A DNA stretch of 64,000 nucleotides, from positions 13,239,865 to 13,303,864 of the forward strand of contig NC_087082.1 in the NCBI RefSeq assembly GCF_026151205.1, given 5' to 3'. A program made the translations under genes and the position numbers. How positions within the stretch are numbered: the first letter of the stretch is position 1; the number at the start of each line of letters is the position of its first letter. The notes below the pieces were generated by a model that was given only the letters and a program-made list of their open reading frames with translations, was not told the DNA's origin and searched no databases. This document shows positions 155 to 7,857 of the stretch, piece by piece. Source of the DNA: Bolinopsis microptera. Taxonomy: Eukaryota > Ctenophora > Tentaculata > Lobata > Bolinopsidae.

Positions 155-2384
155 ATTTGGGACCGGAGGAGCAAGGAAGTTGAGCAACAGTTCACACCGT
201 CAAGCTGGCAAAAAGCCAAGAGGAGTAAACTAGGATGTCACATAACTTGTCTAGATGTTTGGGATGATTGGGTGGTATGTGGGGGTGGTCCTAACCTCTC
301 TTTGTGGTACCTCAAAGAAGGTACATACCTATTATCTAGTACCCCTCACAATATGCAAGTTAAAGTGTACATCTCTATTATAATTCAGAGAATTGTTTTT
401 GTATGATAAAATTCGGTAAAAAGCAAAAGGTTGCAAAGTAACCATGGTAACGACCAAAAAGGGTTGTTACACGCACGTGCGCGTGCAAAGATTGTTAGAA
501 CGGCATTTTTATCGGTTTTGTTGATATTACGTTGTGTTTAGTGCGAGCAATATTTTTATCGGCTGTATCTTCGGTTGTGTAGGATATTTGTTGATTAAAC
601 TTACTAACAAAAAATACTATTAGCTTCCTTCCTGTGACCACGGGTTTTCTAGTTTATAATATAATATGTATTGCCTGTGCCCATGGAATTGGAAAGGAAT
701 ATTTTCTAATTCTAAGGTCTGTAGAACTGTTGATTATTTTTTTCTTAAAACTTATAAACTTACTGACACTCTCTGTAAATATTTGTCATAGCTTTTGAAA
801 ACCACTGTTTTGCCAGAGAGTGGGATAGCCCTGTTGGATATGGGGGATGCAGTACCATCAGTTGTTCGCTTCATGCCAGATACCATTGTAGCTGCAGGAA
901 ACTCACCTTATCTCATGCACTGGGGATTATCAGGAAAACTCAAATATAAGGTAAGAATATCCTGTGTTTGATAGTTGCAGGCTGGGTGGTTTTAAAATAC
1001 TAGATTGGACATGAAATTATAGTTAGTGGACACAGTGGGCTGTGAGTGGGGGTCATGCTAGCATAGGGTATTTTAGACCATCACACATGCCCCTAACTTT
1101 GTTTCTACGGTAATTTGGGTATAAAAATACGATTCCAATCATTTACAGGGCCGAAAATGTCTCAGAAAAAATTTTTGGACCGATTTTGAGCAATCTTGTA
1201 GTCCAAAAATAGGAGGCTGATCCCAGGAAAAGTTGTTTTTTTAGAGGTTTAATCAATTTTAAAGCTCTTTTATGAACTGTAAACGAAGGACAGCTATCTT
1301 AGAAACTCAAATCTTTTTGAATTATGAAAAAATATTGATCAGAACAAAAGTTGTGCCCATTTATATGACCAAAATTTTCTGAAACACCAAATTGTTCCTG
1401 TTATTTTCAAAAATTTCGTTTAAAATCACGATTTTTTGGATTTTTATCAATTTTAACTATAATAATTGAGATATCTTGATTTTTCATCCATATGCATCTG
1501 GTCTAGGATGCAAAAAATGCCACAAACATGGAGAATAACTAAAATATGTCAATTTAATAGCAAAATTGAGCTCATAAATTATCTAAAAATGCAGCAAATT
1601 TTACCCAATTTTTGAGTTTCTTAATTTTTTAAACAGATATAACCCAAAGTTGCCCAAAGTGATTCATATTGCATCTGATTGGGAATTGTCTAAGCTTTCT
1701 AATGATACCATGCATTATATCGAACTATTGCAAACAAACAACGATTTCTGTCATCAAATACCCCAAAAATTGCCTAAAATACACGCCATAAAAAAGGCGC
1801 GGTCAAAAATCAGGTGAAAATGTTAAAGTCATACAGTTTTTTTAGATGGCTGAGTATTCTTAAGTACTATACTGTATTTCAATTATTAAAAACTGCCTTA
1901 ATCAGGCATTTTAGCCCAAAATAATAAATATTAGGCAATTTTTGGTTGAAAAATGCAAAATTTCTTGACAGTGAAAAATGGTATTTTTTCACGCGACGCC
2001 ATTTTGGCATCTTACAAAGTTTTTAATTACGGTTTTTTGCATGAAATCGGGCTAGCTTTTCACAATAAGAAAAGCTTATTTTCAAAGAAATTTAAGAAAG
2101 TCGATTTTAGGCCTATGCTAGCATGGTAGCCCACTGTGGTGGAGGTGATGGATATGTTCATTTAATTACCCAATTATAATCACCCAATAATTATCTTGAC
2201 TGCTCCACCAACTCTCCACACCTTAATTACACAGGTGACCAGTAAACTAGAATCAGTGAAAGACATATCAGTTAACACTGTTGCGAGAGAACAGCCTGTA
2301 CTTCTCGCTGCCGGTACTCCTTCAGATATAAATGTGTTCTTAGACCTTGGTTATCTTAGTCACACTGTACCCTTTTTAGTGTAG
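155..2384 (+). CDS. THOC6: THO complex subunit 6-like, C-terminal exons (partial gene)
   Basis: THOC6 is a WD40 subunit of the THO/TREX complex, which couples transcription to mRNA export in the nucleus. Three exons are visible: 155-320, 817-950 and 2235-2384, the last ending in TAG. All junctions are AG/GT and phases agree (phase 1, then phase 0), giving about 149 residues. Sequence landmarks are a WD-type IWDRRSKEV, then DDWVVCGGGPNLSLWYL, AAGNSPYLMHWGLSGKL and a terminal NVFLDLGY. These match, in order, my recollection of the vertebrate THOC6 C-terminus (VCGGGPALTLWHL, NQWQLSGEL, VDVFTNLGYRA). The earlier WD repeats lie upstream of the window. The 3' intron (951-2234) carries a Transib-like insertion. 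Another WD40 protein is possible but less likely, because the final GY motif matches well. Confidence 0.75.
1031..2138. mobile_element. Non-autonomous Transib-like DNA transposon in THOC6 intron
   Basis: An element of 1,108 bp begins CACAGTGGGCT and ends with the reverse complement AGCCCACTGTG. It is flanked directly by a 5-bp duplication GTGGA (1026-1030 and 2139-2143). Both ends share a second inverted block, CATGCTAGCATAGG, which contains the palindrome ATGCTAGCAT. That block lies 16 bp inside the heptamer on the left and 6 bp inside on the right. Termini of the type CACWRTG and 5-bp duplications are the known signature of Transib and RAG-like transposons. No long open frame is present, so the copy needs a transposase from elsewhere. 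Superfamily assignment rests only on ends and duplication length. Confidence 0.65.
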
Positions 2385-2989: not shown

Positions 2990-3916
2990 ATGGAGAAGAT
3001 AATCCCTTTAAGATCTTCAGAAATCCCCAAAGATAAGACCCTCTTTAAGCTTCAATTAAAATTTATTGAGGAAGGGTGGATTAAGGAGGAATGTACAGTT
3101 CAATTTTTCCGGTCGAAGCAAGGAAATATTTTTGGAATCATCTTCCATCTTGATAAGCAAGGACTGATTGACGGTCCTTTTGGGATAACCCTTTACATCG
3201 ATGACAATGCAAACATTACTGAAGTTAATACATTTCTCCAGGATATTTTACTTTGTGAAGGAAATTTAGAACGCTTTAGCAAGCAGGCTATTGGAATTGC
3301 TTTACAGTCGTCAAAGTTGTATGAATGTGTATTAAAGCGGATAGAAGAGAAAATAGGTTCACGTTATAGAGAGGAGCATTCGATTTACAAACACAAAATG
3401 TTCAAGTCTCCAATAGAATCTATGGTGGACATACCAATGCCTCAAGGCTACAAAATAGGGCCATTGTTAGAGAACCATATCAACTTTATAGTAAAACATT
3501 GGGCAATTGATATTGAGCTGCATTCGGATCCAGACACACCGACAGAGAACTTTTCAGACTTTCCATTTCGCCCATTAGTCGTATCAAATATTACAGAAAG
3601 GCCTGGATTTGGTGTATTTTCTGAGAGTAACCCTGTTACACCAGTAGCATGGGCAGCGTTTTACCCTGGAGGGGACGTGGGGATGCTCCACGTCTTAGAG
3701 AAACATCGTGGAAAGAAACTGGGTCGCATTATCCTCCGACACATGCTGAAGGTACTTCGAGAGGCACACGGTTCGGACTACCGGACACAGGGCTTTGTAA
3801 AGTTACACAATGTTGCGTCTATGAATTTGTTATCATCCGAGGGGTGGGAAGAACAGCCTTACAATAACAAACGGATCTTCTTTCACGAAGATTTTCTTCA
3901 GCAACTTAAGAAATAG
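2990..3916 (+). CDS. Glycine N-acyltransferase-like protein (GNAT fold), single exon
   Basis: The 308-residue open frame starts at an ATG with an in-frame TGA twelve bases upstream and has no intron. Residues about 205-300 form a GNAT/FR47 domain. Visible parts are TPVAWAAFYPGGDVGMLHV (the beta4 strand region), HRGKKLGRIILRHML (the acetyl/acyl-CoA binding R-x-x-G-x-G/A-like turn) and FVKLHNVASMNLLSSEGW (the N-x-x-S-x-x-L-x-x-x-G-W motif near the end of GNAT folds). The N-terminal half, with IPMPQGYKIGPLLENHINFI, resembles the substrate-side domain of GLYAT proteins. These enzymes transfer acyl groups from acyl-CoA to glycine or other amines, usually in mitochondria; location and substrate here are not shown by the sequence. 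A possible polyadenylation signal AATAAA lies near 4176. Loss of introns could mean a retrocopy origin, but the frame is intact. Confidence 0.75.
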   Translation: MEKIIPLRSSEIPKDKTLFKLQLKFIEEGWIKEECTVQFFRSKQGNIFGIIFHLDKQGLIDGPFGITLYIDDNANITEVNTFLQDILLCEGNLERFSKQAIGIALQSSKLYECVLKRIEEKIGSRYREEHSIYKHKMFKSPIESMVDIPMPQGYKIGPLLENHINFIVKHWAIDIELHSDPDTPTENFSDFPFRPLVVSNITERPGFGVFSESNPVTPVAWAAFYPGGDVGMLHVLEKHRGKKLGRIILRHMLKVLREAHGSDYRTQGFVKLHNVASMNLLSSEGWEEQPYNNKRIFFHEDFLQQLKK

Positions 3917-4527
3917 GCGCTTTAATCAGAAATTATAGATTTTTTTAGTAATTTTAATTTTAAACAGATTTTCTATCTTTTTATGGGGATATAATCTTAT
4001 TATTAAAAGGATGACATATTTAATTCAAAGACATTATCTCTGTAATATCTAAACTAGTAACGCCGTTAGAGCCAGCCACTTTGGCTTACATTTTAAAGTT
4101 TGGCTAAGTGGTCATGATGATGATGAAACTAATACCATTATTTCGAATGACTTAGATTAACTTTTGATTAATTTGAATAAACGTTTAAGTACAGATATTT
4201 CTGTGCGAGGACCTAGAGACAGATCCTAATCCAATCAAAGCTGTTTGGTTAAAATTATATGTTGATCACCTTCTTCAGTTATATCAATATTGTTTTTAAC
4301 TAATACTTGATACGTTTTAAAACGTAAAAAATATTCTGATTTATGTTCCTTTTCACTCACTTGTTGTTGACTGATGTGATCAGGATTTATATAATTTGAA
4401 TTTAAACTCATTTATTTCAAAACGTGTCACTTCATATCTCAAAGTTCTGCAAACTAACCAAAATTATTCCTCACAAGTCATTGTCGTTAAGCTAGACTTC
4501 AAAACTGACTTCACCCGCTTTCTGAAA
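3917..4527. other. AT-rich spacer, probable 3' UTR of acyltransferase
   Basis: Contains an AATAAA near 4176 that could end the acyltransferase transcript. No other coding or RNA feature was recognised. Confidence 0.45.
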
Positions 4528-5647
4528 ATGAAGAATAAGATACAACACACAGTGAAAGTGGTAACAAAAAGTGAAGTGATAGAATGCAGTGGAGCAGTGT
4601 TATGTCAACACAGTGGTATTCTCCAGCAACTAGTTGCTAAGGACAACGAACTTTTCCTAGATAACTACACTCACGTACAGGACTGTCTGCTAGTTCTTCA
4701 CGGAGCTGAGGTTTCTCTTAACATGGACAATATCCTGGATCTTATGAAGTTCAGTGTTCAGTTTGGTATCAACGAGGTTTACTTGCAGTGCCTGGACTGG
4801 ATTGAGACTAATTTTAGTGTGGAGAACTTTCTGGAGATATTTAATATATGCAGCAGTGTTTCAAAATTTGCAAAACTTTGTGGAACTGAGTTACTTAAAG
4901 ATCCATGTATTCATATCGCTACGTATTTGAAGATGGTTGGACCTGATGCTGTAGTGAATCTTTATAAGAGTGATTCTGAGGTCAATCAAACTGATCTGCT
5001 CAAGTTTATGTTTGCCACAAAAGTTCTCGTCAGTTGTTTTGCTGATTTGATTTGCAAAATAGTTTCGGAAGAAAACGTCGCAATGGTGCTTCCTTTGCTT
5101 TGTAACAGCTTTGATGAGATTACGAAATTCTCCGAGAGAAATTTTCGCTGTCTGATCACGAAAATTGATTCCGCATCCATTGAAACTCTTGCGCCCAAAG
5201 GATATATTGATTATAAGAAGAAGCTTTGGTCAATTCTCATGGAAGCACGATCTCCTTGTAGTATTCCTCATTTTCTGTTTGATGGGGTGATTTGTCTCAC
5301 TGATGCTATAGTTAAAGACAAGCTTTGGAAGAAAATGAACAAAGATCAAATTATAGAAGCACATAGGCTCTTTGATACACACTCGAAACATTTTATCTAC
5401 TCAGAAATTATGATTGCTTGGATCGTTGAGAACAAACCATCCCCAGGAAACTGTGACTGAACTTCTTCTGGAATTAAAACCATACCAACTTGGTCCTGAC
5501 TACGTTTCCATGTTGAATGATAAATTCAAAGTTCTTGGTTATACTGAAACCATATATCAGCTCCGTTATTTTCCACTTGGAGGCTCCCAAACCATTTCAT
5601 ATCAGAGACCATCTATCATCACCAAGTTAGTAATGGGTGCGGTATAG
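4528..5647 (+). pseudogene. BTB/POZ-domain protein gene with a 1-nt frameshift near its 3' end
   Basis: The frame beginning at ATG 4528 encodes a BTB/POZ domain at residues about 5-110. Visible landmarks are VVTKSEVIECSGAVLCQHS, LFLDNYTHVQDCLLVLHGA and the helix MKFSVQFGINEVYLQC, followed by a BACK-like helical region. BTB domains mediate oligomerisation and often recruit cullin-3 ligases; no second domain was recognised. The frame stops at 5460, but the +1 frame continues without a break (VTELLLELKPYQLGPDYVS and onward) to the stop at 5647. The shift falls at CCATCCCCAGG around 5440. Either a single base was gained there (pseudogene or sequencing error) or the last codons are simply lost. 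The open frame extends upstream of 4528 but without an earlier ATG. Single-exon BTB genes of this type often occur as multicopy families. Confidence 0.6.
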
Positions 5648-5738
5648 GTATGCAGTTTACAATTCATTGTAGGAGTAATGTCAGCCAAGTCAACCTCACT
5701 ATGTCTCGTTTGGTCGACCTGAGAAGGGGGTGATGCAA

Positions 5739-5901
5739 CGTCAATTAATGTCAGTATTCCATAAAAACCCCAAACTGACATTGACATTAATTGACATTAA
5801 TTGACATTAATTGACATTAATTGACATTAATTGACATTAAATGACATTAATTGACATTAATTGACATTAATTGACATTAATTGACATTAATTGACATTAA
5901 T
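5739..5901 (+). repeat. Hairpin followed by a 10-bp minisatellite (TTGACATTAA), copy 1
   Basis: An inverted pair TGTCAGT...ACTGACA forms a short hairpin. It is followed by twelve head-to-tail units of TTGACATTAA (5781-5900), eleven identical and one with a single change. The same hairpin plus repeat recurs at about 7858-7975 in the same orientation. Confidence 0.85.
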
Positions 5902-6317
5902 TTGTCTTGAAATTTGAGATTATCATTATGTTTGTTTGTTTGTTTGGGCCCGGACGGTGCCGGTGGTTCTAATGACCATTTACTAAAATACATAAATACA
6001 AAATACAATATAGTATAAATATTATAATCAGAAGTTTTATAAATCCTATCCGTCCAAGTTAAACTTGAAGGGCGCTACACGCACGACGAAAACTCCCTTT
6101 AATGTGAGCTGAAGTAGACTACTAGTAGTAGAGCTAGTAGCGCTTGAAATTGACAGAACTGAAAACGAAATCTGACAATTGTCGCGAAAACTGACAGTTT
6201 TGTGTGCTCAAAGTGTCGAGAAATACTGACAGTGCAAGACTGGGCACACAAGAGTGAGTTAAAAACATCCTCCACATAAAAACTTGAATACACTAATAAT
6301 AATAAATTATTACACAC
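5902..6317. other. Spacer with a short GTTT run, no gene seen
   Basis: Holds a short (GTTT) run near 5930 and the flank of the LINE ORF1 relic. No coding sequence was recognised. Confidence 0.4.
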
Positions 6318-6950
6318 AAGCTCATTCTGCAGTCTTATTAGTCTTATCAGTACTCTTTATAGCACCGTTTCTGATAAAGTGTAGCTTATCAGGCTGCTCA
6401 GTTACCAGTCGTTTCATGTCCCTGACGAGTTCTCTTTGCTTGGCTCTCTGTTCTGGAGATCGATCTGGGCTGATAAAAACAGTTTAAACTTTTCCGTTGC
6501 TCGCAGGTTTCTCGATTTAGCGAGAATCTGATTAACAATTGTTGCACTTGCCGCAGTCACTTTAACTGGTCTCACAGCCTTGCCAGGTTTGAGCTTTCCG
6601 ACTCTGCTAGCTTCGATTCTGGGTTTCTCTCCGATTGCTAAAAACACTTCACTGACCACGGTGCTGAGCTCCTCATTGTCCTGCTCCGATAAACCAAAAA
6701 TCATCAGATTTTTGTTTCGGTCTTCCTCCTGTACCACAGTTTTCAGCACTTTTCTTGATCATTTCAGAACTGACAGGCTTCTGAGATTCTGGACAATTCG
6801 CCTGTAATACCGAGCTGAAGGATTTGAATCAGCCTTGACAGACTCTCCGACTGACGATTTTAATGACGTCTTGCAACGCTTCCAACGTTTCATTTTGCAG
6901 GCTAGTAGTTCTTGACTGAGCTTAATGATGGACTCCCTGTGTCTCGAACA
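6318..6950 (-). mobile_element. LINE ORF1-type protein relic
   Basis: Read on the minus strand, frames separated by at least two frameshifts give a coiled-coil-like LQNETLEALQDVI, then EEDRNKNLMIFGLSEQ, ASRVGKLKPGKAVRPVKV and SPDRSPEQRAKQRELVRDM. That order, an N-terminal coil followed by an RRM-like KN-I-x-FGL core and a C-terminal S-P-D-R-x-x-x-Q-R block, is typical of the RNA-binding ORF1 proteins of CR1/L2/L1-type LINEs. No reverse transcriptase follows, so this is a detached, decayed fragment. The stop and frameshifts make expression as one protein unlikely. Confidence 0.65.
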
Positions 6951-7857
6951 TCTGAGTTTAACTGAGTTTTGCGGCCATCTTGTAGTCCGTGGTACGACAC
7001 CAGTGAACTCCCTCCAAATATCTTAATGCCTCGTGGCAACAAGTTACACGCAGTGTCCTTGTTCATCTTCTTCATTCACGCAGAAGGGGATAGTTGCTTC
7101 ATTGCTGTGATCTCCACTCGTACATAGCGCTAGCTGAGAGGTTCAACTGAGTCTCTCCTTAACATGTTGATATCCTTTCACCATACTCGCTGGCGGGATG
7201 GTCATGGTCGGGTAACACGGTGATACACAAAGCCTCTGTAGCTGCACGTTACAATCAACAAGATAAGCACAAGATAAGAGAGTAAGAAAAGAGCAACGTA
7301 TGCAATTAGTGTAATACTGAAACTGAGATAAATATCAAGATAATCCACTCAATGTAAGTTAGACCGGTTCCAAAAAACAAAAAGTCCCCTTGAATAATTA
7401 ATGAGTATGTTCTTATCTTGTTGATCCATAGGTTCAAAACCACCAAAAAAAATTACAGCTTCCAACTCTTCCAGCTTCGTCCCCACCGGCCACTCCCATA
7501 TTTTTATTGGTTTCTTATACGAGGTAAAATATCTTGAATCGGCTTTTTTAGTATGAAGAGTAATGTTAACTGTTTAAGAATTCGTTTATTCAAATATAAA
7601 TGTCATGAAGGCATTTCGTTTAATATGTGGTTTTAAGTTTTCTGATGATGTTGAGAACCACGCCTTGGTGGCCACGCCCATTTAAGAAAATTAAATTGTT
7701 GGAAAAACCGTAATTATTTTAGTTTTATATTGTTTAATGATCTTAATTTTTCACATTTCACATTTCCATATGTGATTATTAGAGAATAAATTTATGATAT
7801 AAACGTTCTAAATTGCAAAAAATGTAGAACTACATAATCTCTGGTCGAAAAATATCG
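6951..7857. other. Spacer, probably old repeat sequence
   Basis: May include the 5' end of the LINE to its left. I see no splice-bounded coding segment or RNA gene. Confidence 0.35.

Follow-up and report, generated by a model that had tools for sequence, protein, structure and literature searches.

For HzTransib and RAG, cleavage at a terminal heptamer, formation of hairpins on the flanks and insertion into a 5-bp target have been described (PMC6941560, PMC11844651). According to the text of Tao et al. 2022 (PMC9435367), end asymmetry is shared by all Subgroup I Transibs, a nonamer-binding-type N-terminal domain is present in both Transib subgroups, and ctenophores encode six Transib-like proteins, with Transibs of Mnemiopsis and Pleurobrachia named in a legend. 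For AanRAGL of Aureococcus, the same text describes two conserved elements at the ends, with spacers of 4 and 13 bp. PMC8355894, citing Kapitonov and Jurka 2005, assigns 12/23-like ends to Transib5 of Drosophila and, in Anopheles, to Transib2, N1, N2 and N3. ProtoRAG of amphioxus has 27/31 spacers, and unlike ends are preferred in the assays reported for it (PMC8289069). An argument against a general role is the proposal that invertebrate RAGL complexes are relatively insensitive to end asymmetry (PMC7204232). How the 12/23 rule arose is debated: it has been linked to RAG2 of jawed vertebrates (PMC8355894), and alternatively asymmetric ends have been regarded as ancestral in Transib (PMC9435367). 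Since asymmetric Transib ends, ctenophore Transibs and RAG-like ends with 4/13 spacers are already published (PMC9435367, PMC8355894), the arrangement analyzed here is known in kind. In the literature on Transib ends and ctenophore Transibs, with PMC9435367 covered by its text, we found no report of the four families (A–D) presented below. They add a series within one genome in which the offset stays the same, block and spacer letters change, and a matched transposase is present.

The window, a stretch of 64,000 nucleotides from the ctenophore Bolinopsis microptera (NC_087082.1, positions 13,239,865 to 13,303,864), contains a 1,108-bp copy of a non-autonomous DNA transposon at positions 1031–2138. 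Its features, in window coordinates, are as follows.

1026–1030, no strand: left copy of the 5-bp target site duplication, GTGGA (direct reading; 38/38 two-ended copies have 5-bp duplications)
1031–2138, plus strand: Transib element of family A, non-autonomous, 1,108 bp (differs by 2.6% from the majority sequence of 33 similarly long copies)
1031–1037, plus strand: left terminal heptamer CACAGTG, the presumed cleavage site (direct reading)
1038–1053, plus strand: left spacer, 16 bp, G-rich (direct reading and genome pattern searches)
1054–1067, plus strand: left second block CATGCTAGCATAGG (similarity to the left end of the longer relative L046 extends over 37 bp and stops at the last base of this block)
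2112–2125, minus strand: right second block CATGCTAGCATAGG, inverted (direct reading and alignment)
2126–2131, minus strand: right spacer, 6 bp, GGCTAC (direct reading and genome pattern searches)
2132–2138, minus strand: right terminal heptamer CACAGTG, inverted (direct reading)
2139–2143, no strand: right copy of the target site duplication, GTGGA (direct reading)

Direct reading of the element agrees with the initial annotation in the letters and coordinates of the exact heptamer CACAGTG at both ends, in the 5-bp duplication GTGGA and in a shared block whose distance from the heptamer is 16 bp at the left end and 6 bp at the right. The annotation had also given spacers of 22 and 12 bp. The 10-bp difference between these figures stands and is independent of where the block is taken to begin. 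The absolute values depend on that choice and have to be corrected: they were counted to AGCATAGG, which is an inner part of the block, and measured to the whole block the spacers are 16 and 6 bp. As with vertebrate RSSs, the heptamer is CACAGTG and the offset is about one turn. However, the second element is CATGCTAGCATAGG at 6/16 and not the nonamer ACAAAAACC with 12/23-bp spacers. This nonamer, whose absence the annotation had noted, is missing from families A–C, the whole-block spacers are 6/16 or 9/18, and the signals described here belong to a transposon. Open stretches at positions 820–960 and 2230–2390, which flank the element, resemble by eye adjacent exons of one gene, and the insertion may thus sit in an intron.

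When the genome was searched with the first 200 bp and, separately, the last 179 bp of the element, each query had at least 40 matches. Forty-five distinct family A loci were fetched; both ends were recognised in 38 of them, and one recognisable end is missing in the other 7. Identical 5-bp flanks are found in all 38 two-ended copies, including L033, in which the left heptamer is damaged, and flanks of 3, 4, 6 or 7 bp gave 0/38. Two loci (L013 and L040; C6:19140533 and 19158505) lie 18 kb apart and share an identical left flank, so they probably stem from a segmental duplication instead of separate insertions; of the two, L013 alone is counted among the 38. Across 33 copies of 1,050–1,150 bp the median distance to the majority sequence is 0.72%, and that of the window copy is 2.6%. 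By these distances, the main family A is a young one, and the window copy belongs to its more diverged part.

Three of the 33 copies (L036, L037 and L038) are ~22% from the majority sequence. They form a subfamily of A with a normal left end and a different right end (GGCTGG spacer). The divergence of L036 arises from its right part: identity to the window copy is 96% over the left 638 bp and 67% over the last 206 bp, and the right part looks as if it had been replaced. At the right end of L036 the 6-bp spacer is kept, three letters are changed across the spacer and the start of the block, and 13/14 block letters are retained. A 13/14 right block marks the L036–L038 subfamily in general, which tells somewhat against a strictly kept block. 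In another locus (L041, 104–3378) a family A copy is interrupted by ~2.2 kb. Within the insert lies a short element of family C, complete with both ends and flanked by the duplication ATATA, which makes this a nested insertion.

The spacing of the ends was surveyed by pattern searches that covered the B. microptera assembly (264.65 Mb), using the reversed pattern as the control. The pattern CACAGTGGGC-N(0-30)-ATGCTAGCAT has 89 matches in the genome versus 0 for the reversed control, and by eye the matches listed are either 24 or 34 letters long. The wider pattern CACAGTGNGC-N(0-30)-CATGNTANNNTAGG has 101 matches (control 0), compared to ~0.06 expected by chance with equal base frequencies. Among the 100 of these 101 that were listed, 52 are 37 letters long, which corresponds to a spacing of 16 bp, 48 are 27 letters long, which corresponds to 6 bp, and no other length occurs. 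With 6/16 in all listed ends, and left and right consistently 10 bp apart, the helical-turn asymmetry suggested in the initial annotation is supported as anatomy of this family. Inverted pairs of listed ends within 6 kb consist of one long-spaced and one short-spaced end in 37 of 38 cases. The remaining pair consists of two short-spaced ends, one from the nested family C element and one from the family A copy around it; both elements have a long-spaced end of their own. Two same-strand pairs within 6 kb are not element pairs. Ends are inherited within a family, so a pairing rule gains no independent support from the lack of like-ended copies.

The initial annotation had raised the possibility of an autonomous relative, and a longer relative lies within L046 (C3:4782560-4787200). 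It is 3,927 bp long, is flanked by the duplication AGATA and has ends of the same kind as the window element, with spacers of 16 bp on the left (three letters changed) and 6 bp on the right. The window copy and L046 have the left 37 bp (91.9% identical) and the right 496 bp in common, and the 37 shared left bp are exactly the heptamer, the spacer and the block. A search of the genome with the Pfam RAG1 family gave a match inside L046; the only other match lies in L051. Joining two reading frames of L046 over a GT-AG intron yields a predicted protein of 740 aa, which matches Pfam RAG1 with an E-value of 1.7e-12 and, among PDB entries, HzTransib (6pqn, 8.4e-23), RAG1L (6b40, 3.9e-12) and RAG1 (3jbw, 2e-8). 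The catalytic triad of HzTransib is D126, D225 and E436 (PMC6941560); D290, D392 and E658 of the L046 protein align with these residues when the HzTransib chain is numbered 17 lower, an offset that fits all three. By these matches the L046 transposase is of the RAG1/Transib type with the three catalytic acidic residues present, and the family A transposase looks intact.

Its C-terminal tail (CKHCDMRGHSRRWC, residues 707–720) is of the CTT1 type, with the CCGHC motif as given in PMC7204232. In the family D transposase the CxxC and the GH of this tail are present and the last C is not in place. The stretch from CxxC to LH comprises 67 residues in A and 61 in D, and is far longer than in the aligned HzTransib. 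In exon 1 of L046 the segment KKCRLHILKLSKSQQHRRL aligns at −1.8 bits, which is below significance, with a RAG1 segment that we take to be the nonamer-binding domain; AlphaFold models this exon poorly (mean pLDDT 48.8). Apart from the transposase frames, L046 has a single frame of at least 100 aa, which encodes 119 aa on the opposite strand. A genome search for a RAG2-like gene gave no PF03089 match, and the positive control was equally silent.

The element thus combines inverted CAC-type heptamer termini, 5-bp duplications (38/38 in family A, 5/5 in B, 4/4 in C and 1/1 in D) and a same-ended relative with a DDE transposase resembling the RAG1 core, all of which characterise the Transib superfamily. 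Terminal CAC motifs also occur in superfamilies other than Transib, such as CACTA or Chapaev, and a transposase of one of these might in principle mobilise the element. Given the 5-bp duplications in 38/38 copies and the RAG1/Transib transposase inside the same-ended L046, the probability of this is negligible, and a non-Transib transposase was rejected on the latter ground. Among its recognised ends and copies, family A showed neither equal-spaced ends, nor duplications of other lengths, nor a non-Transib transposase. In line with a ctenophore host, a glutamate receptor ligand-binding domain of this genome scores 222 bits against ML032222a, a receptor of Mnemiopsis, and 187 bits against a kainate-like chain (4zdm); the remaining matches among the 60 listed reach at most 100.2 bits. 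We conclude, with a probability of roughly 0.7 for the whole explanation including ends, transposase and mechanism, that the window element is a recently mobile non-autonomous member of a ctenophore Transib family.

Its asymmetric ends agree with Subgroup I of Transib. As described in PMC9435367, this subgroup is also alike in its RAG1-like transposase (no second gene was seen in L046), its listed host phylum, the 5-bp duplications, which are a general Transib trait, and a CxxC-GH-C tail, which here is CTT1-like. The many residues that separate the zinc cysteines from the next conserved segment are, on sequence grounds, as expected if the alpha11-alpha12 region were kept. The comparison to the published ctenophore Transibs is by text description only and does not extend to their subgroup or spacings (PMC9435367).

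Three further families show how far the arrangement is conserved within the genome. Family B has the block CATGATAGTTTAGG at both ends and a spacing of 16/6. Its copies of ~1,444 bp have 5-bp duplications (5/5), and L051 matches them over 380 bp on the left and 560 bp on the right; its transposase is 60% identical to that of family A. The L051 transposase is split (3387–7257; C2:19700386-19704256): the main part is on the minus strand, with the left end upstream, and stops short, and the last 55 residues together with the right end are inverted beside it, which looks like an inversion at the element end. On the other side of the split transposase there is a frame that by eye resembles an oxidoreductase.

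In family C, whose block is CATGCTATATTAGG, the spacing is 16 bp in the long left ends L066 and L067, and no recognised right end follows within ~2.8 kb of either. No transposase match was found in L067 or in L066 and its next 4 kb (L075), and no C-type block was found in L075 either. Four short copies have both ends, with duplications in all four. In three of them (L041, L069 and L070) the left and right blocks are alike at 12/14 letters and the left spacer is 16 bp, and in the fourth (L068) the left end is one base shorter. Among the C loci examined we saw no element with a perfect block at both ends, and the block mismatches of the short copies and the left end of L068 speak against perfect block matching in this family.

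Family D (L057) is represented by a 4,348-bp element with the duplication TGGTG. The block, CTGGAAARAATCAAG, lies at 18 and 9 bp, with its two copies alike at 14/15 letters, and two further family D right ends keep the 9-bp spacing. Measured to GAAARAATC, an A-rich stretch, the distances are 21 and 12 bp. The transposase matches HzTransib with an E-value of 3.2e-8 and is 29% identical to that of family A in the aligned exon. In families A, B and D the long-spaced end is upstream of the transposase. A 1.5-Mb region at C5:12.6-14.1 Mb contains two degraded family D copies and numerous Transib transposase fragments. Of 10 further transposase loci fetched (L051–L060), only L051 and L057 have recognisable ends and the other 8 do not; the series of families is thus not a full survey of the Transibs in this genome.

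Because family B keeps 16/6 despite a changed block, family C does so with small exceptions and family D has 18/9, the asymmetry is old and has been retained. The initial annotation had named a single 10-bp indel as an alternative. As a recent accident in one copy or in family A this is ruled out, since the offset is common to family B, with a ~60% identical transposase, and is matched by 18/9 in family D, with 29% identity. An old indel that was kept since is a different matter. The offset could be the relic of one 10-bp insertion into the left spacer of an ancestral Transib element, inherited without any role in pairing: the left spacer resembles the right spacer plus a G-rich stretch, families A–C could share one ancestor, and the ends are inherited as a pair. 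The alignment of the A and B left ends argues against this. It has 19 gap columns in 199, several gaps lie inward of the block, and none is found in heptamer, spacer or block; its first 42 columns are gap-free, which hints at a length constraint and is weakly unexpected. Moreover, in family D the offset is a separate one (18/9) and the block is different, and AanRAGL has spacers of 4/13 bp (PMC9435367). We therefore regard the relic as unlikely, if still the most serious competitor. A search for bacterial relatives that might root the asymmetry gave 28 pattern matches in prokaryote contigs, of which none was confirmed.

The letters of the block differ between families A and B, yet agree at both ends within each family, while most spacer letters disagree. 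In the window copy the family A block contains the perfect 10-bp palindrome ATGCTAGCAT. Palindromes are common in the sites of regulators, and in place of a transposase site the block might be a conserved promoter, host-factor or replication element near both ends; binding by the transposase is itself a prediction here. Such an element would have to be present at both ends and to change its letters by family in step at both ends, as is the case in A and B; in addition, families B and C lack the palindrome. We consider a regulatory role improbable. The palindrome was also rejected as the recognised feature, because families B and C have lost it. The second block is most simply predicted to be the site of an N-terminal domain that resembles the RAG1 nonamer-binding domain.

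By analogy to HzTransib and RAG, a transposase supplied in trans would nick at the heptamer, form hairpins on the flanks and insert the element into a 5-bp staggered target. Its N-terminal domain, akin to the nonamer-binding domain, would grip the second block as RAG1 grips the nonamer, and the offset of about one turn would favour pairing of the long-spaced upstream with the short-spaced downstream end, like that of a 12RSS with a 23RSS. On this analogy, a functional pairing rule for unlike ends might hold in these families. That several ctenophore Transib families obey such a rule by means of the one-turn offset, with a block that co-evolves with each transposase and with no RAG2, is a tentative proposal to which we give somewhat less than even odds. 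If it is true, a 12/23-like rule would be a property of the transposase alone, predating RAG2 and adaptive immunity. Genome-linkage data currently place ctenophores as the sister group of other animals.

The described systems resemble this arrangement to different degrees. In the fly and mosquito Transibs the distance between heptamer and second element likewise differs by about one turn between the two ends, but the second elements are reported to be RSS-like nonamers (PMC8355894), whereas families A–C share the block CATGNTANNNTAGG; among A–D only family D has the A-rich block. AanRAGL is alike in its spacer offset of 9 bp and its 5-bp duplications, but carries RAG2L and has other end sequences (PMC9435367). 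In ProtoRAG the heptamer-like TR1 and the distal TR5 also lie at unequal distances; however, the offset is 4 bp and RAG2L is required (PMC8289069). Families A, B and C, which keep the 10-bp offset with changed blocks, and family D with 9 bp are natural variants with a matched, intact-looking transposase. Thus, it can be tested whether a Transib transposase without RAG2 prefers unlike ends, and whether its N-terminal domain reads the block. Finally, near one family A fragment (L045, 1689–3108) there are long repetitive open frames on both strands, which form a minisatellite-like tandem array.
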